Of a stretch of 64,000 nucleotides of DNA, positions 22,480 through 34,421 are shown one piece after another. Below the pieces are notes generated by a model, which was not told the DNA's origin, did no database searches, and saw nothing but the letters and a program-made list of their open reading frames with translations. Source of the DNA: Candidatus Hydrogenedentota bacterium (GTDB lineage: Bacteria > Hydrogenedentota > Hydrogenedentia > Hydrogenedentales > JAJRTN01). The DNA lies in the NCBI GenBank assembly GCA_024278275.1, contig JAJRTN010000042.1:46261-110260 (forward strand), in the 5' to 3' direction. The position numbers were made by a program, and so were the translations under genes. Position 1 is the stretch's first letter. Every line of letters begins with the position of its first letter.

Positions 22480-23343
22480 CTATCGGTAATACAGCTCGGA
22501 CCAGCGATGCTCGGCCACGAGAGCACTCTTGACCTTTTCCCAGGCTTCGGGCGACCCAGCCATCTTGACCAAGACCTTTTCCAAGTCGTCACGCACCCGC
22601 TCCAGGCCACTCACGTAGACGTAGGTGTTGGGATCCTGAACCATTTCCCACACTTCCTGCCGTTGCGCATCGATGGCCTTTTCGAGATCTTCGTTGACAT
22701 CCTGGATGTGCCCGCGCGGACTGATCGCCTCGAAAGCCTTGAAGGTGTCGTCGTCGTAATAATTCGTGAAGTCGTCCTTCACGTCGTTCATGTAGAGCAA
22801 TTCCATGCCGGTCTGCGCGCCATAGAAAAGGCGAACCTTCCCTTTCCATCCGCCCCGCTCGCCATAGATATGCTTGACAAAGGCACGGAAGGGGGCGATG
22901 CCCGTCCCGTTACCGATCATGAGGAGGTTGGCGTTGTCATCGCGGGGCACCACGAAATGGCGGCCATACGGCCCGGTGAGGGTGACGGTGTCTCCTACCC
23001 GCCGATCACACAGGAAATTGGAGGCCACGCCGGGATACTGCTCGCCGCTCACCTCGTCGATGTAGAAGCATCGGCGCACACAAAGGGAGAAACACGCGGC
23101 GTCACCCTCGCCCTGGCGACCGCTTGCGATGGAGTAAAGGCGCATGTGGTACTCATTGCCGAACTCATGCGGTCCGGGGACAAGTACGCCAACACTCTGT
23201 CCTTCAATAAAGTGAAAGGTCCGATCCGGAACCTCCAGGAGCAGGTGCCGCACCTCGACATCCGAGTCTTCCGGCGTAATACGTTCGGTCTCTTTTACGA
23301 CGGCCTCGTAGGTACGGCTTGTATCATAATCGCGCAGGTTCAT
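22480..23343 (-). CDS. Ferredoxin-NADP(+) reductase, plant/BoxA type
   Basis: This flavoprotein moves electrons between ferredoxin and NADP. The FAD site RLYSIAS lies near residue 70, the NADP-binding loop GNGTGIAPFRAF near 140, and YVSGLERVRDDLE near 240 is typical of the C-terminal nucleotide domain. The length of 287 residues suits a single-chain reductase without a fused ferredoxin. BoxA-type reductases of benzoyl-CoA epoxidation are similar, but no partner genes lie here. The ATG at 23343 overlaps the stop of the upstream small gene (ATGA), and GGAG is seven bases before it. As the last gene of the rnf/nifJ locus it probably supplies NADPH from reduced ferredoxin, or the reverse. Confidence 0.88.
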   Translation of the reverse strand: MNLRDYDTSRTYEAVVKETERITPEDSDVEVRHLLLEVPDRTFHFIEGQSVGVLVPGPHEFGNEYHMRLYSIASGRQGEGDAACFSLCVRRCFYIDEVSGEQYPGVASNFLCDRRVGDTVTLTGPYGRHFVVPRDDNANLLMIGNGTGIAPFRAFVKHIYGERGGWKGKVRLFYGAQTGMELLYMNDVKDDFTNYYDDDTFKAFEAISPRGHIQDVNEDLEKAIDAQRQEVWEMVQDPNTYVYVSGLERVRDDLEKVLVKMAGSPEAWEKVKSALVAEHRWSELYYR

Positions 23344-23561
23344 TTCGTTTCTCCACTGCCATTTCTTGTTTCGGCGCCGGCATCCGGCGCCTCCTGGTGG
23401 CTGCACAATTCGGCCAGAGCACAGCGATGACACTCATGCAGTTCCGGCGTGGGGCAATCCTGGGGATGGCGCAGGGCAAAGCGCCGCGACCATTGTTGTA
23501 CGGCCCCCCATCCCGTCAGGACGCCGAATATGACTGCCACCGCTACCAAATACTTGAGCAA
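23340..23561 (-). CDS. 73-aa four-cysteine membrane peptide in the rnf operon
   Basis: I do not recognise this protein. It begins at a TTG with AGGAAGG five bases upstream and 11 bases after the rnfA stop, and its TGA overlaps the ATG of the reductase gene, so operon position supports translation. Residues 1-20 (LKYLVAVAVIFGVLTGWGAV) form one membrane segment, followed by a basic stretch (WSRRFALRH), which suggests the rest is cytoplasmic. The tail carries CPTPELHECHRCALAELC, four cysteines spaced C-x7-C-x2-C-x6-C, enough to bind an iron-sulfur cluster or zinc. NqrM, which assembles iron into the related Nqr pump, is also a small single-pass four-cysteine protein, but the spacing here differs. 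The ORF track extends it upstream into rnfA, which I reject. Confidence 0.6.
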   Translation of the reverse strand: MLKYLVAVAVIFGVLTGWGAVQQWSRRFALRHPQDCPTPELHECHRCALAELCSHQEAPDAGAETRNGSGETK

Positions 23562-23572
23562 AAAGACCTTCC

Positions 23573-24157
23573 TCAACTCCCGCCCAGTCCGGCAAAGCCC
23601 ATGAACGCCATGGACAGAATGCCGGCAAGGATGAGGGTCAGGGCCGCGCCGCGCACCACGCCGGGCACGTCGGCCAGTTCGAGTTTCTCCCGAAGCCCGG
23701 ACATAATCACCAGCGCCAGGGTAAAGCCCAAGCCCGCGCCCACGGCGTAGACCAGGCACTGGACAAAATTATATTCCTTCGCGGTATGAAAGAGGGCCAG
23801 ACCGAGAATGGCACAGTTGGTGGTGATGAGCGGAAGAAATATGCCCAGGGATCGAAAGAGGGCCGGACTGAACTTCTTGATGAACATTTCCACGAGCTGC
23901 ACGGAAGAGGCAATAACCGCGATGTAGCAGATGAGGCGCAGAAACTCGAGATCATATTTTGCGAGCAGGAGATTGAGCCCGTAAGCGGAGGACGAACTGA
24001 CGAGCATGACAAAAATGACCGCCAGGCCCATGCGGGAGGCCGTCTCAAACTTGCCCGACACGCCAAGAAAAGGGCATATACCCAGGAACATGCTCAACAC
24101 AAAATTGTTGATGATACAGGCGTTCAGAAAGATAAAGCTGAGGGATTCGCTATGCAT
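23573..24157 (-). CDS. rnfA: Rnf complex membrane subunit A
   Basis: RnfA is one of the two homologous integral membrane subunits that form the ion-conducting core of the ferredoxin:NAD oxidoreductase. Six transmembrane helices are evident over 194 residues. The conserved cysteine motifs that hold the intramembrane iron cluster are present as FLGICPFLGVS near residue 26 and LITTNCAILG near residue 110. The C-terminal helix has the RnfA-type MAFMGFAGL. It overlaps the end of rnfE by eight bases. Symbol by clear family resemblance and operon context. Confidence 0.95.
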   Translation of the reverse strand: MHSESLSFIFLNACIINNFVLSMFLGICPFLGVSGKFETASRMGLAVIFVMLVSSSSAYGLNLLLAKYDLEFLRLICYIAVIASSVQLVEMFIKKFSPALFRSLGIFLPLITTNCAILGLALFHTAKEYNFVQCLVYAVGAGLGFTLALVIMSGLREKLELADVPGVVRGAALTLILAGILSMAFMGFAGLGGS

Positions 24158-24797
24158 TGGCCCCGTCTCCTTCCGCGTTGCCGCGTTGCCGGCGTTCTTC
24201 CAGCCAGGCGAAAAGCAGCAGCCAGAACCCCAGGACGATAAAGCCGCCCGGCGGCAGGATCATGATGCCCCAGGGCTGAAAACTGTCGGGCAGTATCTGA
24301 ACACCGAACAGGGATCCACTGCCCAGCACTTCGCGAACCACGCCCAGACAAAGCAAGGCGAAGGTAAATCCCAACCCCATGCCGAAGGCATCGAGAACAG
24401 ACTTATAGAGCGTGTTCTTCGAGGCGAAAGCCTCGGCACGGCCAAGGATAATGCAATTCACCACGATGAGCGAGATGAACGCACCGAGCGCCTTGTAAAG
24501 GTCGATACTGATAGCCTGGATCGTGTAGTCCACAATGGTTACGAAGGTGGCGATAATGACAATATAGGTCGCGATGCGCACTTGTTTGGGGATGAAGTTG
24601 CGCAACATGGAAACCAGGGCACTGGAGCAAACCAGCACGAAAGTGGTCGCCAGCCCCATGGCGATGGCGTTGATGACGGAGTTACTCACCGCCAGGGTGG
24701 GACACATGCCCAGGAGCATGACAAAAACCGGGTTTTCTTTCCAGATTCCCCGAACAAATACATCCCAGTTTGCCGGCGTTTTACTGTTTGCTGCCAT
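24150..24797 (-). CDS. rnfE: Rnf complex membrane subunit E
   Basis: RnfE pairs with RnfA in the membrane and shares its six-helix fold. The cluster-binding cysteines are in LLGMCPTLAVSNS near residue 32 and IVVNCIILGRAEAF near 115. Residues 1-20 are a short cytoplasmic start. The ATG at 24797 shares a base with the rnfG stop (TAATG), showing translational coupling. The charged C-terminal tail (EERRQRGNAEGDGANA) is slightly longer than usual. 215 residues. Confidence 0.95.
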   Translation of the reverse strand: MAANSKTPANWDVFVRGIWKENPVFVMLLGMCPTLAVSNSVINAIAMGLATTFVLVCSSALVSMLRNFIPKQVRIATYIVIIATFVTIVDYTIQAISIDLYKALGAFISLIVVNCIILGRAEAFASKNTLYKSVLDAFGMGLGFTFALLCLGVVREVLGSGSLFGVQILPDSFQPWGIMILPPGGFIVLGFWLLLFAWLEERRQRGNAEGDGANA

Positions 24798-25486
24798 TAT
24801 TGATTCGCCTTCAACACGTCGAGGTTCTTCCTGATCACCGGGAGCAACTCCGCGGCACTCGCGTTCAATGCACGGCCAACGGTTTTCGATGAGATGGTCG
24901 CCCCGGCGATACCGTCGATTTCCCAGGGATTCTCCTTTGCGCCATGCTTCACCGTGACAATGTCGTGGGCCAAGCCGTCACCCGTGTCCGCAAGCCGGGC
25001 GTCAAGGGCGGTAAAGTTTTCCAGGAACACGGGATCCTTGGTGACCCGGTCACCGAGGCCCGGCGTCTCCTTGCTCTCCAACACGGTCATTCCGATGATG
25101 ATTTCCTTTTCGGGGGAGTACCCGTAAAGCACTTTCACAATGTCGGCATAACCCTGCGAGGAGCCCGGAAGGGCGACACCGCGGAAGGCGCCCGAGGCGT
25201 CGTAGCCGCAGTAGAAAACGGTTCCGGCGGGATTCTCTCCCTCGGCGAGCGGTTGAACCACTCCATTGACAATCTGGAAGGTGCGGCGTTCTTCGGCGCC
25301 GGGAAGGACCTGGAAAACGGCCCGCTCGATAGCGGCCTTCTTGTTGGCCGCAATGGGGCCTTTCGTCACATTAAAGACCAACACCAGCAGAAACCCGGAC
25401 AGCATGGCGACACCGCCCAAGGTGTAGATCATCTTGAAACTGCTGACTTCCGGCTCGGCGGCCTGTACGTTTTCGACCGTGCTCAT
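24797..25486 (-). CDS. rnfG: Rnf complex FMN-carrying subunit G
   Basis: RnfG is a periplasm-facing subunit anchored by one N-terminal helix (residues 20-43, IYTLGGVAMLSGFLLVLVFN). Near residue 195 it has GIAGATISSKTVG, where the threonine of the GAT motif takes covalent FMN in this family. Residues 130-170 carry the conserved VLESKETPGLGDRV. The protein is 229 residues. Its ATG overlaps the rnfD stop (ATGA). It passes electrons between the cytoplasmic subunits and the membrane core. Confidence 0.95.
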   Translation of the reverse strand: MSTVENVQAAEPEVSSFKMIYTLGGVAMLSGFLLVLVFNVTKGPIAANKKAAIERAVFQVLPGAEERRTFQIVNGVVQPLAEGENPAGTVFYCGYDASGAFRGVALPGSSQGYADIVKVLYGYSPEKEIIIGMTVLESKETPGLGDRVTKDPVFLENFTALDARLADTGDGLAHDIVTVKHGAKENPWEIDGIAGATISSKTVGRALNASAAELLPVIRKNLDVLKANQ

Positions 25487-26541
25487 TTCGCCACTTTCTT
25501 TTGCCTGATGGCACCATAAATTCGAGGCTGGGTCATGTTGTCAATAATGGGGGACACGGCGTTACCCAGCAGAATAGCGTACATGACCCCCTCTGGAAGG
25601 CCGCCCTTGAGGCGGATGATAATGGTAAGAAAACCCATCAGTCCCGAGTAAATCCACACCCCGAGAGGCGTCACCGGCGAGGCCACCATGTCCGAGGCCA
25701 TGAACCAGGCACCCAACATGAGTCCACCGGTAAAAAGCATGAACACCGGGGAAGGGTATTGCTCCATATCCATCAGCCAGAAAATGCCACTGGTGATGAA
25801 GGCCGCGCCCAGCATCCCGGCGGGCAGACGCCAGTCGAGGAACTTGCGTGCCGCCAGGTACAGGCCGCAGATCAGGATAATAATGGACGAGGTTTCCCCG
25901 AGGGAACCGGCGGTCATGCCGGTGAAGGTATCCAGGATGGGGGGCATTTCGCCACCAAACTTGAACGCGGCCAAGGGCGTGGCACCGGACCAGCCATCGA
26001 CATGCAAGGCGGCCACCCAGTCATCCACCGCGGCGGGCGTGGTGAAGGGGAAAGCCAGGGTCGAGGGGATGAACTCGAAAAAACGCCCCGGAGCGTTGGC
26101 GGGGGTCCAGGTGGTTATGGCCACCGTGAAGGAGGCCTGCAGGAAGGCGCGGCCCACCAAGGCGGGATTGAAGCAGTTGAAGCCGATGCCGCCGAAAATC
26201 GCCTTGCCCATAACGATGCCGACCACGCCGCCCACGGCGGCCATCCACAGCGGGAACCCCGGGGGAAGGGTCAAGCCCAGCAGCATGCCGGAAATGACCA
26301 CGCTGTAATCGGTAACGCTGGTCTCCTTCTTGGTGAAAACACAAATGAGATGCTCGGTAAGGACGGAGGCCGCAGTCGTGGTAAGCAGCAGGGCCAGCGC
26401 ACTGACGCCGAACTGAAAAACGGACCAGGCACACACGGGCAGCATGGCATAGACCACATTGAGCATGATGGTCTGGACGGTCACCGCCTTATGAAAGTGG
26501 GGCGAGGTCCGAAGCTGAATGACTTGAGGCTGTACCGCCAC
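25483..26541 (-). CDS. rnfD: Rnf complex FMN-carrying membrane subunit D
   Basis: RnfD is a ten-helix NqrB-type subunit. Near residue 180 it carries DGWSGATPLAAFK, in which the threonine of SGAT binds FMN covalently. Helices such as VCAWSVFQFGVSALALLL and GLTLPPGFPLWMAAVGGVVGIVMGKAIFGG are typical. I chose a GTG start at 26541, with GAGGAG nine bases upstream and a one-base overlap with the rnfC stop; it yields 352 residues, the usual length. The track start at 26637 reads back into rnfC and adds about 30 residues that do not match the family. Confidence 0.93.
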   Translation of the reverse strand: MAVQPQVIQLRTSPHFHKAVTVQTIMLNVVYAMLPVCAWSVFQFGVSALALLLTTTAASVLTEHLICVFTKKETSVTDYSVVISGMLLGLTLPPGFPLWMAAVGGVVGIVMGKAIFGGIGFNCFNPALVGRAFLQASFTVAITTWTPANAPGRFFEFIPSTLAFPFTTPAAVDDWVAALHVDGWSGATPLAAFKFGGEMPPILDTFTGMTAGSLGETSSIIILICGLYLAARKFLDWRLPAGMLGAAFITSGIFWLMDMEQYPSPVFMLFTGGLMLGAWFMASDMVASPVTPLGVWIYSGLMGFLTIIIRLKGGLPEGVMYAILLGNAVSPIIDNMTQPRIYGAIRQKKVAK

Positions 26542-27878
26542 TATTTCACACTCCTCTTCCGATTCTGGGCCTTGGCGATGCGGAAATGCTGCACCAGCGG
26601 GATATTGGCCGGGCAGACGTAGCTGCAACAGCCGCATTCAAAGCAATCCCGCAGATGGAAGCGCTCGTCCATTTCCTGAAACATCCCCTTGCGGGCCAGG
26701 ACGCCGAGTCTTGAAGGGTTCAGCCGCATGGGGCAGGCTTCCAGGCAGGCGCCGCATTTTATACAGGGATAGATCTTCTTTGGCGGAAGCACATCCTCCG
26801 GCCGCATGACCACGATCCCCGTAATGCCCTTCGTCAGCGGCAGGTCCAATGACGCCGCCGTGGCGCCCATCATGGGACCGCCAAGAATGACCTGGGAGAC
26901 ATGGCCGTCGAAACCCGCCTGCTCCAGGGCGAAACGCAAGGGCGTTCCCAGGGCAATAAGGTAATTGCCGGGCCTGGCCAGTCCCGGCCCCGTAAGGGTG
27001 ACGACACGCTCGATGAGGCCCTGGTGCTTGGGCAGCAAATCGCCTACCTGGGCCAGGGTGGCCACATTGAAGACCGCCACGCCCGCGTCCGCCGGCAAAC
27101 CGCCGGAGGGGATCTCACGACCCAACAACGCCTTGGCAAGCATCTTCTCGGCGCCTTGCGGGTACTTCACCCGCAACGGCTCAACCGTCACGGGGAGCCC
27201 CGCGGGAACGCTTTCCCTGAGTTTCTCCACCGCGTCAAGCTTGTTTTCTTCCACGCCAATAATGGCCCGTTCCGCGCCAACGGCCCTCATTACAATGCGA
27301 AGGCCGTCCATGATATGGCCCGGCTGCTCAAGCATCACCCGGTGATCCGTCGTGAGATAGGGCTCGCATTCGCAACCATTGGCGATCACCGTATCGACAT
27401 GCTTGCCTTCCGGCACGGCCAGTTTCACATGGGTGGGGAAGGCGGCCCCGCCCAGGCCCACCACCCCCGTGGCCTGTACCGCCGATACCAGTTCTTTCGG
27501 GGAAAGACCGTCTATATCCTGGGGCGCGCCATAGAGGATTTCCTGACTGGCACTGGGGTAAAGACGCAGGAAAATACTGGGAGACATCCCCCCGCGATGG
27601 TCGGGTGCCAAGGCAATTCGCTCGACGACCCCCGTGGCGGGAGCATGCATGGGAACGCTCACGAATCCCCCGGGCTCGGCGATGGGCTCGCCCCGCACCA
27701 CTTCCTGCCCCTCGCGAACAATGGGCTTCGCCGGCGCGCCCAAATGCTGGGACAGGGGAATCCGCATCTCGTCCGCGAAAGGAAGGCGCCGCGTGGCCTT
27801 TGCTTCGGTCGACTCCTTGCATTCCCGCGGATGCACCCCGTGGGGGAAGGTTTTCAATGCTGCGCTGTTCGCTGACAT
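26541..27878 (-). CDS. rnfC: Rnf complex iron-sulfur/FMN/NADH subunit C
   Basis: RnfC is the cytoplasmic subunit that reacts with NAD(H). The N-terminal 110 residues include a biotinyl-like barrel (IVREGQEVVRGEPIAE, VPMHAPATGVVERI). The NQO1-like fold follows with GLGGAAFPTHVKL near 140 and ANGCECEPYLTTDHR near 165. The C-terminus carries two ferredoxin motifs, CIKCGACLEACP and CFECGCCSYVCP, for two [4Fe-4S] clusters. The ATG at 27878 gives a normal 445-residue protein; the track start at 27905 is nine codons earlier. It is separated from nifJ by 93 bases. Confidence 0.95.
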   Translation of the reverse strand: MSANSAALKTFPHGVHPRECKESTEAKATRRLPFADEMRIPLSQHLGAPAKPIVREGQEVVRGEPIAEPGGFVSVPMHAPATGVVERIALAPDHRGGMSPSIFLRLYPSASQEILYGAPQDIDGLSPKELVSAVQATGVVGLGGAAFPTHVKLAVPEGKHVDTVIANGCECEPYLTTDHRVMLEQPGHIMDGLRIVMRAVGAERAIIGVEENKLDAVEKLRESVPAGLPVTVEPLRVKYPQGAEKMLAKALLGREIPSGGLPADAGVAVFNVATLAQVGDLLPKHQGLIERVVTLTGPGLARPGNYLIALGTPLRFALEQAGFDGHVSQVILGGPMMGATAASLDLPLTKGITGIVVMRPEDVLPPKKIYPCIKCGACLEACPMRLNPSRLGVLARKGMFQEMDERFHLRDCFECGCCSYVCPANIPLVQHFRIAKAQNRKRSVK

Positions 27879-27971
27879 CCGATTCGCCCTATTCCGCTCT
27901 CGCACGCTCCAAATAGTTCAAGCGTCCGGCGGCATGGCGGGGAAATACCCGCCACGCCGCCAAAGATGTGA

Positions 27972-30900
27972 CTAGTTGAACTTTTCCGCCCGCTTCATGA
28001 GCTTTTCGATGCCCTTTTCGTTGGGATTCGCCGGGGTTCCAGGATGAATGATCCCGGCGCTGCACTTCTCGGCGGCCTTCACCAGATCCTTGAAGGAACC
28101 TCCCTTGGGATCCTTCACATAGGCCTGTTTCTTGTCGCTGTAGGCAAAGATCTTGGCATTCACATTGATGCACTCATCGCAGGCCGTGCATTCGCTGGAA
28201 TCAATATACGCGGGGGTGAAACCGTTGTCGCTCGTGCCGGCGGCCGCAGCCGGTTCGGCCGCGGGAGCAGGCGTGGAATCAGGCACGGACGGCGCCTCGG
28301 TATGGGGCGCTTCCTCCGTGAGACTGGCCACCAGGTTCCCACCTTCGCCACTGGCGGCCAATTCGAGCAGGCCCGCGGCCAGCTTATGCGCCATCTCCGC
28401 CCGTACCTGTCCCGCCACTTCCTCGGGATCAATCTTGCCCAGGAGACCGGCGATGCCACGAAGAAGATTCCAGAAACCCAAACGTTCCTGGCAAGACAGC
28501 ACGACCGGTTTTGCCGGGATGACGCGGGTAAGCTGGTTTTTCTTGTTCAGCGTCCAGATGTACGGGAAGAGATCCTCGCGGTCCTCTTCCTCCATGGCGA
28601 TAAATTCGGCCAGGGGCACCATGTTATCGTTCCACGTGTCCCGTGGCGCGGTACGGAACTGTTTGCGGAACCGGGCCTCGGTAACCGCAAAATCGGCAAA
28701 GGTCATGGGCAGTTCCATGGAACCCTCTTTGCCGTCCTCATCCACGTAGTTGAGGGTGTAGGTGGGCCAATCCTCGTCAATGGCCGGATTGCCCTCGAGG
28801 TCCAGGCACTCTTCAACCGTCACCCCGTTGTCCGGGTTGTAACGATAAAGGGGATACGCCCGGGATTCAACCGCCAACTTGCTCTGCTGGTCGGCCACAT
28901 CGTCGGCAATGCCGTGCTCGGGCATGCAGGACGCGTAGATATTGAAGATGGCGGGACGCCGCGCGTTGAGTCCCTCGATGAAACCCTCCATGAGGTGACT
29001 CATGTTGGACATGGCGCCCTGAAGCACATAGGTCGTGCGGTGCGCCATGGCAATCAGGCCCATCTCTTTTCGGATCTCCTCCTTGCCCTGGTAGGCCTTG
29101 CCGTACTGGGCCATGTCGGAGATCTGCCCGATAAAGCCCGAGGTACAGGCCTGGCCACCCGTGTTGGAGTACACCTGCGTATCCAGGATAATGGCCTTGA
29201 TCGGCTTGCCCGACATCATCATGCGCGACAGGTTCTGGAAGCCGATGTCGTACATGGCGCCATCGCCGCCCACCGCGACCACGGGCGGACTGAGCAGCAT
29301 TTCCTCGTCACTGAAGTGGCGCCAGTTGAAATAGGTGAAGAAGTCCTTGTGCTCGGCCGGGTTGTACTTGCCTTCCAATTCCAGTTCCGCCATGCGGATG
29401 ACCTTGAAGCCTTCCGCCATCTTGGCCATGTGCCCTTCGAAGACGCCCATGGCGATAGACGGAGAATCCTGGAAGAGGTGGTTCGTCCAGGGGAAGGGAT
29501 AGGGATTGTAGGGATAGGTGGAACCCCACACCGAGGTGCAACCGGTGGCATTGATGAAACCGGCCCGCGAACGGCCCCGTTTCGTCGTACCCTCGGTGTA
29601 GCGCCACTTGAGGTCCCGGATCTTCTCCAACATCTGGGTGACCCAGCGCAACCACTCGGGATCGAGGGGGGTGCTGACTTTCTGCTTATCCAGGGCGCCC
29701 GTGAGGGCGGACAGTGTCAAATCGCCACGCGAAGCGGTATCGATGGCCTTCTCGATGGCGCTCGCGTCGCTGATGTCCATGGTGGACGCCAGCTTCATGC
29801 GAATGTGTTTTTCCACGCGGTCGGCCAAATCGTCCAGATAGGCAACATGCTGCCTGATACGTCCCTGCATAAGCGCTTCCATGGTCGCCACGAAGACATG
29901 CATGGTGGTCTTTTCGCCACACCCCAGGCAAGCGCCGTCCCCGCCGATCATGGCGAGGTAATTATCCTTGTTCAACAGAAGGGGGTGGAGGGCGCCGATC
30001 CGCTCATCAAGGTCATCGATACGGTTGAAATCATCGGGCGTGTTAGGCAAAGCGAGCCAGAAATCCCAATCCTTGCGCAGCCTGGCGATGGTCTCGGGCG
30101 TCTGGAGAACTGGACGCAAGGCGTCATCGTTACAGACCTTTACGCATTCCATGCAGCCCTTGCAGGTGAAGGGATTGAGGGTAATGGAAAAGAGGCCGCC
30201 ACTGCCTTTCGCCTTTTTTTCCTTCAGGCCATAGTAGGGCGCAGTGACGGAGAACTTGAAACCGCCCAGGGCGTCCTTGAAAGCGGAAAACTCCTCTTCC
30301 AACTCCGCCTGCTGCGCCTCGCCCACCTTGCACTCGATCATGGTGTCAGCGATGGCCGGCTCCATAAGGGCCGCCACGTTCGCCTTGTCGCCTTCCACGT
30401 CCAGCATGGCCCGCAGTTTGCGCTGGAGGATACTGCCGGCCTTGCGCAGGTGCCTGACGGGCGTGCCGCCGGCCTCGACGACCTTGATGGCCGTTTCAAT
30501 GACATCGCCCACGCTGGACACCAGGCCCGGAAGCGCGGTATCGGGACACACCGCGTAGCACGCGCCACAGGCCGTGCAATTCTCGGGAATCCAATCGGGG
30601 TGATCGAAGCGAATCTGGGTCATGTCGCGAAACACACCGGTGACCGCGGGAATCATGCTGATAGCGATAAAGGGATCGGTGAGGTTGTCGCTGCCCTTGC
30701 CGGACGCGTAAAAGTTACCCGTCTGGTCCCAGAAACGGTGGATATCGGTACACTTGCTGTCGCTGCTGGGCTGCCGCTTGAGCATGACCGGCAGGGCGGC
30801 TTCCTTGCGAAGCTGCTGCGTCCCGGTCTCGGTCACGTGTTTATCCGTGACCTCCTTCACCTCGTCAAAACCACGCCGGACCACACGCAGGTTATCCTGA

Positions 30901-32936
30901 ACCACCCGTGCGCCTTTGCCGCCGAACTTGTGTTGAAGCTGCGCCTCGATGGCCTCGAAAAGCGACTTCTCGGTAAGATTCGATTTCTCCATGAGGGGCG
31001 AACAGGCGAAAAAAGCGCCCTGGAAAGCGATGCCCTGCATGCGGAACTGAAGCTCGGGGTCGGACGCCTCCTCGCGGGCGATCTTGAAACCGTCCACGAA
31101 GAAAAGGCGAATCTCGTTATCGATGATGATCTTCTGGTAAACAGGAGGAATGGCGGACCACATCTCCGCGGGATCCTCGCACTCGCTTTGAATAATAAAA
31201 ACACCGCCCTTCTTCAGGCCCGCCAGCGCGTTCGAATGGCCAAACACGTTGGGATCGGGCGAGAGCACCACGTCCACGTAGAAATACTCGCTGTTCACGC
31301 GGATAGGCTCGGGCGCGGCGGAAAGATAGTAGGTGGTAGGTTGGCCCTTCTTCTCCGAACCATATTTCGGGTTGGCCTTGATATGGTAATTCAACAGGTC
31401 AAAGAGCGTCATCGCCAGGTTCTTGCCGGTGGTGATGGCGCCCCAGCCGCCGACGGAGTGGAAACGGACCGTAATACTGCCTTCGGGCATGAGGTTCGGG
31501 TTCTCGCTGCCGTGAACCGCCAGTTCCTTTATATCGGGATAGCCGTCCAGGATTTCCTGCTGATAGATTTCCTGCTTGGGCGTGAACGGCTCGTCGCGAA
31601 TAAAGTCGATGGAAAGATAGAAAAACTTCTTCTTGGCGCCGTCCGGAAGCATGTTCTCCACCGCGCCGATAATACCCTCGGGCTGCAAGTCGCGGCTGCC
31701 GAGACCAAAGGCACAGGAGTAAAGCGGCGAGGCATCGTTGAGCGACGTGTAGGTCGTGTACTCGGGGTAGGGAAGCGCGCCACCGCCGGCACGGCCGTTC
31801 TCCAGGCACTTGCCCATGACCGCGCGCACTTCGCGGATCAGCGGCAAATCCTCGGCCAGGGGCTGGTCGGTGCGTTCCATCACCACCACCCCTTTTCGGC
31901 CTTTCAACAACGTGCCCACGAGGTCGCCCGGGAAGGGGCGGAACATGGTCATGTTCAGCACGCCCACCTTCAGGCCGCGCGATTCACGGAGGTAATCGGA
32001 CACCACCTCGGCGGAGGGAACCGAACTGCCCATGGTCACGATGACGTACTCGGCATCCTCCATGCGATAGGTGAGCACGCGCTTGTACTCGCGTCCGGTA
32101 AGCTCGGAAAACTCGGCCATGCACTGATCGGCAATCTTCTGAACATGGTCAAAGAAGAAGGGACGCTGACCGGCGACGCTCTGCATGTAGGCGTCCTGGT
32201 TCTGCACGGTACCGGACATGACGGGATTGTCCACGTCCCAAAGTTCAGGAATGCGGCGGCGCTTCGGCCCAAACATCAGCCGCTGCGCGGGCGTGGGCGT
32301 GTCGATAATGTCGTCGGGACGGCCAAGAAACTCGGCGATCAGTTCCCGCTCAGGCACCATGAGCGATTCAATCAGGTGGGTGGTCAGAAAACCGTCTTGC
32401 GCCACGATGCCGGGTGTCAGGCTCAGCTCGGCAATCTTGTGGGCGATAATGTTGAGATCACAGACTTCCTGGGCGCTCTTGCCAAAAACCTGGAAAAAGC
32501 CCGTGTCATCCACCGCGTGATAGTCGTCATGGCCGGCGTGTACGTTGAGGCTCGACTTCGTCATGGCGCGGCAGCCCATATTCAGGACATAGGTGAGGCG
32601 CTTGCCCACAGCCGCATAGAGCGACTCGTGCATGTAGGCGATGCCCTGCCCCGAGGAAAAGTTCGTGGCGCGCAGGCCGGTCATGGAAAGACCGGCGGTA
32701 ACGGCCGCGGCCGCGTGCTCGCCCTCGGGCTCGACGAAGATCAGGGGACGCTCGGAAACATTGATGTGTCCGCGCGCGGTCTCCTCCGCCCAATACTCGC
32801 CCATCTGCGTGGAAGGAGTAATAGGGTACGCGCCGGCGGCATCACTGGATTCACGTTCGCACATGATAACGGCGCTGTTGCCGTCCAAGGCCTGGCGGAT
32901 GCCCGGGTACTTTGGCTGTTTCTTGTCGTCTTTCAT
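27972..32936 (-). CDS. nifJ: Pyruvate:ferredoxin (flavodoxin) oxidoreductase, extended form with C-terminal ferredoxin
   Basis: This enzyme oxidises pyruvate to acetyl-CoA and CO2, reducing ferredoxin. Domains in order are the N-terminal pyrimidine half (YPITPSTQMGEYWAE), the transketolase-like and gamma parts (FHSVGGWGAITTGKNLA near 495), a ferredoxin motif CTACGACYAVCP near 785, a second CKGCMECVKVCN near 935, and the thiamine diphosphate domain with GGDGAMYDIG and VYSNTGGQACTSG near 1235. The usual family length is about 1200 residues; this has 1654. The extra parts are a roughly 130-residue stretch between the two cluster motifs, other insertions, and an Ala/Pro-rich linker leading to a C-terminal single-cluster ferredoxin-like domain (ECTACDECI with a distant EKCSAGIIHPG). 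It sits inside the rnf operon, between rnfB and rnfC. Confidence 0.93.
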   Translation of the reverse strand: MKDDKKQPKYPGIRQALDGNSAVIMCERESSDAAGAYPITPSTQMGEYWAEETARGHINVSERPLIFVEPEGEHAAAAVTAGLSMTGLRATNFSSGQGIAYMHESLYAAVGKRLTYVLNMGCRAMTKSSLNVHAGHDDYHAVDDTGFFQVFGKSAQEVCDLNIIAHKIAELSLTPGIVAQDGFLTTHLIESLMVPERELIAEFLGRPDDIIDTPTPAQRLMFGPKRRRIPELWDVDNPVMSGTVQNQDAYMQSVAGQRPFFFDHVQKIADQCMAEFSELTGREYKRVLTYRMEDAEYVIVTMGSSVPSAEVVSDYLRESRGLKVGVLNMTMFRPFPGDLVGTLLKGRKGVVVMERTDQPLAEDLPLIREVRAVMGKCLENGRAGGGALPYPEYTTYTSLNDASPLYSCAFGLGSRDLQPEGIIGAVENMLPDGAKKKFFYLSIDFIRDEPFTPKQEIYQQEILDGYPDIKELAVHGSENPNLMPEGSITVRFHSVGGWGAITTGKNLAMTLFDLLNYHIKANPKYGSEKKGQPTTYYLSAAPEPIRVNSEYFYVDVVLSPDPNVFGHSNALAGLKKGGVFIIQSECEDPAEMWSAIPPVYQKIIIDNEIRLFFVDGFKIAREEASDPELQFRMQGIAFQGAFFACSPLMEKSNLTEKSLFEAIEAQLQHKFGGKGARVVQDNLRVVRRGFDEVKEVTDKHVTETGTQQLRKEAALPVMLKRQPSSDSKCTDIHRFWDQTGNFYASGKGSDNLTDPFIAISMIPAVTGVFRDMTQIRFDHPDWIPENCTACGACYAVCPDTALPGLVSSVGDVIETAIKVVEAGGTPVRHLRKAGSILQRKLRAMLDVEGDKANVAALMEPAIADTMIECKVGEAQQAELEEEFSAFKDALGGFKFSVTAPYYGLKEKKAKGSGGLFSITLNPFTCKGCMECVKVCNDDALRPVLQTPETIARLRKDWDFWLALPNTPDDFNRIDDLDERIGALHPLLLNKDNYLAMIGGDGACLGCGEKTTMHVFVATMEALMQGRIRQHVAYLDDLADRVEKHIRMKLASTMDISDASAIEKAIDTASRGDLTLSALTGALDKQKVSTPLDPEWLRWVTQMLEKIRDLKWRYTEGTTKRGRSRAGFINATGCTSVWGSTYPYNPYPFPWTNHLFQDSPSIAMGVFEGHMAKMAEGFKVIRMAELELEGKYNPAEHKDFFTYFNWRHFSDEEMLLSPPVVAVGGDGAMYDIGFQNLSRMMMSGKPIKAIILDTQVYSNTGGQACTSGFIGQISDMAQYGKAYQGKEEIRKEMGLIAMAHRTTYVLQGAMSNMSHLMEGFIEGLNARRPAIFNIYASCMPEHGIADDVADQQSKLAVESRAYPLYRYNPDNGVTVEECLDLEGNPAIDEDWPTYTLNYVDEDGKEGSMELPMTFADFAVTEARFRKQFRTAPRDTWNDNMVPLAEFIAMEEEDREDLFPYIWTLNKKNQLTRVIPAKPVVLSCQERLGFWNLLRGIAGLLGKIDPEEVAGQVRAEMAHKLAAGLLELAASGEGGNLVASLTEEAPHTEAPSVPDSTPAPAAEPAAAAGTSDNGFTPAYIDSSECTACDECINVNAKIFAYSDKKQAYVKDPKGGSFKDLVKAAEKCSAGIIHPGTPANPNEKGIEKLMKRAEKFN

Positions 32937-33104: not shown

Positions 33105-33980
33105 TCAGACTCCCTTACCCAAGGGAAGTGGCGACTTCCGCGTGATTCGTTTTGCCTGTCCCCCTTTCACCACCCCCCGCTGATCGTCGATCCACACAAT
33201 GGCTCCCGTGGGGCAGCGCTGAATAACCTTTTGCGAAGCCAGCCGATTCTTGGAATAGTCCACCACCGCCAGTCCGTTTTCAATGGAAACAAGATCGCCC
33301 GGTGCGTCCGCGGCACAACGGCCACAGCCCGTACAGGCCACCTCGCATTCCGCGAGGGCCTCGTCTCCCTGCGCAAGGCTCTTGCAGGCCACCCAAAGCC
33401 GATGGCTTACGGGGTGGATGGAAAAAAGATCCTTGGGACAAGCGACCACACAGGCATTACAGGCGGTACAGAGGGCTTCATCCACAACAGGAAGCCCTGC
33501 GTCGCTCATGGTGATGGCGCCAAACTCACAAACCGTCTGGCAGTCACCCAGGCCAAGGCAGCCCCAAACACATCCTTTCCCGCCGCCCGATATCAGCGCG
33601 GCACCCTGGCAACTCCGGATACCCTCATATTGTGCGCGGGTCCACGCCACGTGACGGCCGCCCGCGCACGCCAGGCGGGCCACGCGCTTCTCACCGGCAC
33701 CGGCGTCAACCCCCAGCAGGGAGGCAATGGATTCATTGTTGGCCGGATCATTGACCGTACACTTACCGGGTGCAATACTGCCCGCCACGCATCCCTCCGC
33801 GAAGGCGCGGCAGCCGGGCGTACCGCAGGCACCGCAGTTGGCACCGGGAAGCATCGCCTCCACCTGGTCAATACGGGGGTCTTCATAAACATGCAACTTG
33901 CGGTTGGCAACCGCCAAAGTGACCGCGAGGATCACCCCGAGGCCCAGCATGGCAAGTCCGGCCATTAAAATACTGGTCAA
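33105..33980 (-). CDS. rnfB: Rnf complex ferredoxin-type subunit B
   Basis: RnfB accepts electrons from reduced ferredoxin at the membrane. One N-terminal helix (MAGLAMLGLGVILAVTLAV) anchors it. GANCGACGTPGCRAFAEGC near residue 55 is the four-cysteine cluster site of the family. Later motifs, CVWGCLGLGDCQTVC, CTACNACVVACP and CTGCGRCAADAP, hold further [4Fe-4S] clusters; the third has alanine in place of a fourth cysteine nearby, with RCPTGAI supplying one later. I chose a TTG start at 33980 with AGGAAAACG before it; the ATG at 33965 has no visible ribosome-binding site, and the track start at 34106 is unlikely. It is the first gene of the locus. Confidence 0.92.
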   Translation of the reverse strand: MTSILMAGLAMLGLGVILAVTLAVANRKLHVYEDPRIDQVEAMLPGANCGACGTPGCRAFAEGCVAGSIAPGKCTVNDPANNESIASLLGVDAGAGEKRVARLACAGGRHVAWTRAQYEGIRSCQGAALISGGGKGCVWGCLGLGDCQTVCEFGAITMSDAGLPVVDEALCTACNACVVACPKDLFSIHPVSHRLWVACKSLAQGDEALAECEVACTGCGRCAADAPGDLVSIENGLAVVDYSKNRLASQKVIQRCPTGAIVWIDDQRGVVKGGQAKRITRKSPLPLGKGV

Positions 33981-34421
33981 CGTTTTCCTAAGCTCCTGAA
34001 GAAGCGTTGCCACGCGCACGTCTGGCCCGCACATGTTGCGGTGCTTGGCTGGAGGACACCCGGTCTTGAGGAAAAAACAAACCGGCCATCTCACCCGACG
34101 GGCCACAAATCAACACGGTTCACGCAGGTCGCCTGAACCAACCCGGCCGCCGCCAGGTACTCGGGCACATTGCAGGCGTCACCCGTACTATAATGCAATC
34201 CTCGTTCCAAGATCAATGATCTCCCGACAAAATGCGATAGCCCCGGATTTCGGGCATGATCCGGCGCGAACCCTCCTGGGAAAAACACATGCGCCCCGAG
34301 AATCGAACACAACTGCTCAGGACAATGGTGTCCTTCCGACCAGGGAATTCGCCCCGGATTCCACGACTACCAACGATTCCAACGCACCTTATTCAGTCTT
34401 AAAGTATTATTCTTATCTTTC
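33981..34421. other. Leader and intergenic region upstream of rnfB
   Basis: This 441-base stretch lies between two minus-strand genes. It contains a candidate promoter at 34187-34216, leaving a leader of about 200 bases before rnfB, long enough for regulatory folding, although I cannot identify a known riboswitch. The plus-strand ORF drawn across it has no start signal and I reject it. Confidence 0.5.
34187..34216 (-). promoter_or_regulatory. Putative promoter of the rnf/nifJ operon
   Basis: On the minus strand TTGATC (34216-34211) and TATAGT (34192-34187) are 18 bases apart. The surrounding DNA is less GC-rich than the genes. rnfB begins about 205 bases downstream. Confidence 0.35.

Follow-up and report, generated by a model that had tools for sequence, protein, structure and literature searches.

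The window, the whole stretch of 64,000 nucleotides analysed here, comes from a genome that we assign to Hydrogenedentota by the names of its nearest rnfA relatives. Its minus strand carries an rnf operon with the gene order rnfB, a pyruvate:ferredoxin oxidoreductase-like ORF, rnfC, rnfD, rnfG, rnfE, rnfA, a small ORF and an FNR-like gene. rnfA (23573..24157, TIGR01943), rnfE (24150..24797, TIGR01948), rnfD (25483..26637, TIGR01946) and rnfC (26541..27905, TIGR01945) all scored above the cut-offs of their models; the listed start of rnfD overlaps rnfC, and its true start may be further in. rnfG (24797..25486) was recognized by FMN_bind above cut-off, with TIGR01947 its best match but below cut-off. 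rnfB corresponds to the listed ORF at 33105..34106, the start of which is uncertain, with PF04060 over cut-off at about 33756-33851.

Two further genes accompany these. The long pyruvate:ferredoxin oxidoreductase-like ORF (27972..32936, minus strand), judged from its translation only, sits inside the operon between rnfB and rnfC and has an extra C-terminal ferredoxin-like stretch. The operon is closed by a PetH-like ferredoxin-NADP reductase gene (FNR; 22480..23343, minus strand), which has FAD and NAD binding domains above cut-off and PetH as its best NCBIfam match, but below cut-off. An FNR gene is found nearby in 17 of 80 related rnf loci, and this, together with its place at the end of the operon, hints at an Rnf-linked NADP branch. 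The same genome (G000) also has an NqrE-like gene (C128), with no NqrM above cut-off; assembly of the Nqr pump may therefore proceed here with no recognizable NqrM. Read from the translations, RnfA of the window contains the segments FLGICPFLG and TTNCAILG, and RnfE contains LGMCPTLA and VVNCIILG; we take the cysteines in these segments to be the probable ligands of the intramembrane RnfA/RnfE cluster.

A small gene between rnfA and FNR

The small ORF occupies 23340..23561 on the minus strand, starts with TTG at 23561 and encodes the 73-amino-acid sequence MLKYLVAVAVIFGVLTGWGAVQQWSRRFALRHPQDCPTPELHECHRCALAELCSHQEAPDAGAETRNGSGETK, an Rnf-associated single-helix cysteine protein. It was proposed in a first-pass annotation of the window, and direct reading of the letters bears out its layout. 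The stop codon of rnfA (23575-23573) lies 11 nucleotides ahead of the start codon; a Shine-Dalgarno sequence, AGGAAGG (23567..23573, minus strand), is placed 5 nucleotides ahead of the TTG, its first base coinciding with the last base of the rnfA stop codon region; and the ORF overlaps the FNR gene by ATGA at 23343-23340. The ORF caller does hide the gene, as had been stated, since the listed frame runs on to 23759, inside rnfA.

The predicted protein begins with a membrane helix at codons 2-31 (23469..23558, minus strand), which includes the family signature W18-x3-Q22. AlphaFold gives this region as a single confident helix, with a mean pLDDT of about 85-97, followed by a low-confidence tail. 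The cysteine stretch lies behind the helix, as the annotation had it, at codons 36-53 (23403..23456, minus strand); the last spacing had been miscounted as x6, and the stretch reads C36-x7-C44-x2-C47-x5-C53. This is a CX2CX5C core of the kind seen in RseC, preceded by an optional upstream cysteine. A search of the PDB with the small protein returned chance helix matches only, neither it nor its relatives are covered by a curated family of Pfam or NCBIfam, and we found no description of it, or name for it, in the open-access literature.

When the contigs of the genome collection were scanned directly with the window protein alone, no match was seen. Members of the small family differ too much from one another for exact peptide patterns to find them, and they were therefore reached via rnfA. 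Sixty relatives were searched, and similar ORFs turned up beside rnfA in other families of the same order; inspection of the sequence downstream of rnfA revealed a comparable ORF at nearly every Hydrogenedentota rnf locus. Altogether, an equivalent ORF of about 50-80 codons follows rnfA in 33 of the 33 Hydrogenedentota genomes with an Rnf-type rnfA (a match at E 1e-50). This count includes G066, where the family profile matched beside rnfA; G029, which has what appears by eye to be a weakened copy; and G041 and G043, which at first seemed to lack the ORF and have it behind two inserted genes. The insertion in G041 and G043 (loci L284 and L285) consists of a membrane-anchored double ferredoxin similar to the C-terminal part of RnfC, together with a second RnfG, and it is possibly an extension of the Rnf electron path. 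At L026 and L028 we considered, and rejected, a replacement of the small ORF by a double ferredoxin, as the small ORF follows two inserted genes.

The gene is also found well beyond this phylum. Among the 80 best rnfA relatives, which span about ten phyla (Calditrichota, KSB1, Fibrobacterota, Gemmatimonadota, Acidobacteriota, Myxococcota, Bacteroidota, Proteobacteria and others), 68 have the small ORF. At 67 of these it is adjacent to rnfA, and at L115 it lies about 490 bases beyond. Automatic family matches at L028, L122, L216, L234, L246 and L248 were discarded as noise or other genes. An ORF encoding a helix followed by at least three cysteines was present downstream of rnfA in 103 of the 107 family loci scanned, compared with 0.7% of dinucleotide shuffles; with the motif C..C.{2,6}C the same scan found 83 loci and none of 2140 shuffles. 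The first-pass annotation had proposed looking in related rnf loci for conserved cysteines and for an excess of synonymous substitutions, and both were found. C44 and C47 are invariant in an alignment of 67 members, and C53 and W18 are conserved in at least 90%. Pooled pN/pS among close pairs is 0.31 in frame, whereas the two shifted frames give 1.12 and 1.36 (equal-length pairs). The small gene is under purifying selection, and we have virtually no doubt that it is real.

The family plan is simple: about 50-80 amino acids, with one N-terminal helix carrying W-x3-Q and then a CX2CX5C-type cluster. The W-x3-Q signature marks the helix end in 72 of 96 unique members, the exact CX2CX5C occurs in 56 of the 96 and the looser C..C.{2,6}C in 76, and the fourth, upstream cysteine is optional across the family. 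In 91 of the 96, the stretch behind the helix is richer in positive charges than the stretch ahead of it, and no member shows the opposite, so that the cysteine tail should be cytosolic.

Confinement to one branch of Rnf

A quick RnfA/NqrE tree was built from 155 proteins, comprising 111 loci of one RnfA clade, 38 other Rnf loci and six nqrE. All bearers of the small ORF fall within the clade of 111 (SH-aLRT 94), where it is present at 97 loci, 94 of them with the ORF adjacent to rnfA and three (L026, L028 and L115) with it slightly further off. The remaining 14 clade loci have no small ORF near rnfA, and some of these are also without RseC. The small ORF is missing from all 38 Rnf loci that fall outside this clade. 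In these, rnfA is followed by rnfB in the classical gammaproteobacterial arrangement, or the genes form an operon of the type seen in Bacteroides, or rnfB and rseC come after rnfA. The bacteroidotal loci L195-L203, in which rnfB follows rnfA and rseC is nearby, branch close to the clade of bearers in the RnfA tree.

The homologous Nqr pump does not share the gene. None of the six nqrE loci in the tree has it, and Hydrogenedentota with Nqr but without Rnf gave weak matches only, covering mostly the helix. One genome in which no rnfA was detected (G030, locus L283) contains a small ORF resembling the family. The 2.1 kb fetched around it holds no rnf gene, which possibly reflects an orphan copy or an incomplete assembly.

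The first-pass annotation also suggested that the small protein might relay electrons from Rnf to the adjacent FNR, a reading to which the ATGA overlap in the window and the presence of FNR at 17/80 loci would lend themselves. However, FNR is missing from the flanks retrieved for most bearers, and at L074, L089, L227 and L228 FNR follows rnfA without a small ORF. The comparison across loci thus contradicts the relay, and we give it hardly any credence. Bearers are confined to one Rnf clade, none is found at Nqr, and FNR and the small ORF each occur without the other; the partner is therefore Rnf, rather than Nqr or FNR. The tie to Rnf that had been drawn from the window alone holds across related rnf loci, and we are highly confident that the small protein is Rnf-specific.

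Resemblance to NqrM and RseC

The first comparison to be made is with NqrM (PF04400, DUF539), which the relevant part of a 2025 review describes as a four-cysteine membrane factor needed for Fe-S insertion into Nqr (PMC12174285). Both proteins have a single N-terminal helix followed by a cysteine tail, and both are encoded by a small gene in the operons of homologous pumps. This shared architecture, and a profile alignment of the helix with a probability of 91%, are what would favour a true NqrM homologue serving Rnf. The alignment is limited to the helix, however, and the cysteines do not align: those of NqrM are of the SCGG...C-x-C-x3-C type, a spacing found in none of the 96 unique members. 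The window protein does not match PF04400, nor does PF04400 appear among the families listed for the members, and the best NqrM match in the window's own genome (E 0.5) lies elsewhere than the small ORF. NqrM accompanies Nqr, while the small protein accompanies Rnf, after rnfA, and is absent where Nqr alone is present. NqrM membership was rejected on the profile, the cysteine spacing and the helix-only alignment, and homology to NqrM now seems to us most improbable. Of the original proposal, an Rnf maturation factor by likeness to NqrM, a maturation or accessory role still gives the best fit; NqrM is a counterpart in architecture only.

Two other proteins with a helix ahead of cysteines were compared. 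The FeoB-associated cysteine-rich membrane protein (PF12669) likewise has a cysteine-rich tail after its helix, and 11 of 67 members gave weak matches to it (best E 0.00077); the window protein gave none, and the neighbours are rnf genes, not feo. The N-terminus of RnfB (PF04060) is also a membrane helix followed by cysteines, and in classical operons rnfB follows rnfA, but its cysteine spacing, as read from the sequences, is unlike that of the small protein. The idea of a reduced RnfB was dropped once the same operon proved to contain a complete rnfB upstream.

Our attention was drawn to RseC by weak PF04246 (RseC_MucC) matches in 8 of 28 members (best E 0.14); in the set of 67, 6 members matched weakly (best E 0.077). 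No match exceeded the cut-off, and the window protein gave no match at all. When the profile of the small family was aligned with that of RseC, only the CX2CX5C motif aligned, over 17 columns and with a probability of 70%, and a match limited to one 17-column motif is too little to establish common descent. E. coli RseC has CX5CX2CX5C, with conservation of its last three cysteines; in vitro, an oxygen-sensitive Fe-S cluster can be held by the isolated RseC domain, and RseC contacts RsxB and RsxD (PMC11729352). In some hosts, Rnf reportedly assembles without RseC (PMC11729352). RseC and the small protein therefore have in common that they are membrane proteins tied to Rnf/Rsx, with a cytosolic CX2CX5C core and an optional upstream cysteine, the cytosolic side being judged from charges in the case of the small protein. 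They differ in build. RseC has about 140-160 amino acids, with an N-terminal cysteine domain followed by two helices, whereas the small protein has about 50-80, with one N-terminal helix ahead of the cysteines. A cytosolic CX2CX5C is reported for RnfF of Rhodobacter capsulatus as well, in common with RseC (PMC11729352); RnfF is set apart by its description, being a large protein with an ApbE-like part and so unlike the small protein. By the tests made, the small protein does not belong to the RseC, NqrM or FeoB-associated families.

The distribution of the two proteins brings them closer together. No RseC above cut-off was found in 68 Hydrogenedentota genomes. In a sample of Bacteroidota, RseC was present in 21 of 21 genomes that have Rnf without the small ORF, and in each of these rseC is on the contig of rnfA, within about 6 kb by the listed coordinates. 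RseC was absent from all three Bacteroidota with the small ORF and from all 26 without a detected Rnf. Fisher's exact test for 0/3 versus 21/21 gives 1 in 2024, a value that ignores kinship, and it is three small-ORF bearers that carry the complementarity in this phylum. The pattern is less strict in a mixed sample, where many Gammaproteobacteria possess RseC in any case, both proteins occur in G073 and G100, and neither was found near rnfA in several genomes. In Bacteroidota and Hydrogenedentota, the occurrence of the small ORF and that of RseC are complementary. Taken with the cysteine motif, this distribution makes RseC, and not NqrM, the closest counterpart by motif; in its motif and in where it occurs the small protein most resembles RseC, and in its architecture NqrM. 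We consider it probable that the small protein is the equivalent of RseC.

A candidate accessory factor for Rnf

What an RseC equivalent would do depends on how RseC itself is read. In Clostridium ljungdahlii it has been read as an rnf regulator, since deletion of rseC lowered rnf transcripts and abolished autotrophy (PMC9124969). By analogy, the small protein could be a sensor in the membrane that responds to redox state or iron and controls the expression of rnf. Against this, the protein of 50-80 amino acids has no DNA-binding part and its gene stands at the end of the structural operon, and the authors of the deletion study leave an indirect effect possible (PMC9124969). We regard a sensor as very unlikely.

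Alternatively, the Rnf complexes of this clade could contain the small protein permanently, as an additional subunit with an Fe-S cluster in its tail that relays electrons, for instance with ferredoxin or RnfB on one side and the membrane part on the other. Tight operon linkage, conservation across the clade and the cysteine-rich tail would all suit a subunit, as would the gain at the same place, in G041 and G043, of the double ferredoxin and second RnfG. However, the number and spacing of the cysteines are more variable than a fixed redox centre would lead one to expect, given an exact CX2CX5C in 56/96 and an optional fourth cysteine; fourteen clade loci have no small ORF nearby; and rnfB, the usual ferredoxin-side subunit, is already present. 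We therefore think a subunit unlikely.

We suggest instead that the small protein is an Rnf-dedicated accessory membrane protein in the place of RseC, most likely for building or loading the Fe-S centres of Rnf, a proposal to which we give about an even chance. The single helix would anchor a short cytosolic tail, the three or four cysteines of which (core C-x2-C-x5-C) could bind iron or an Fe-S cluster. In the Rnf complexes of its clade, the small protein would fill the position that RseC has elsewhere, and it would help to build Rnf or load it with Fe-S, for example with the intramembrane [2Fe-2S] between RnfA and RnfE. By analogy with NqrM, which acts on NqrD/NqrE, this cluster would be the likeliest target. 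That the small protein serves Fe-S biogenesis is, in our judgement, a serious possibility that falls a little short of even. More tentatively, it may be the first dedicated Fe-S maturation factor of Rnf, from a family separate in origin from RseC and NqrM, and supply the RnfA/RnfE cluster.

The same part of the 2025 review that deals with these factors names ApbE for flavins and NqrM for Nqr, and names no Fe-S factor for Rnf (PMC12174285). Our results make an unnamed membrane protein the conserved companion of one large Rnf branch in many bacterial phyla. RseC is required for Rnf-dependent growth of one acetogen, and its function is disputed. An unrelated-looking protein that shares the cysteine core of RseC and appears to take its place across whole phyla is an argument for both having the Rnf complex itself as their target, and not SoxR or transcription. 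If the maturation-factor reading is true, the basic role of RseC would be Rnf maturation. The small protein provides a minimal version for testing, and would be relevant to the expression of this clade's Rnf in other hosts.
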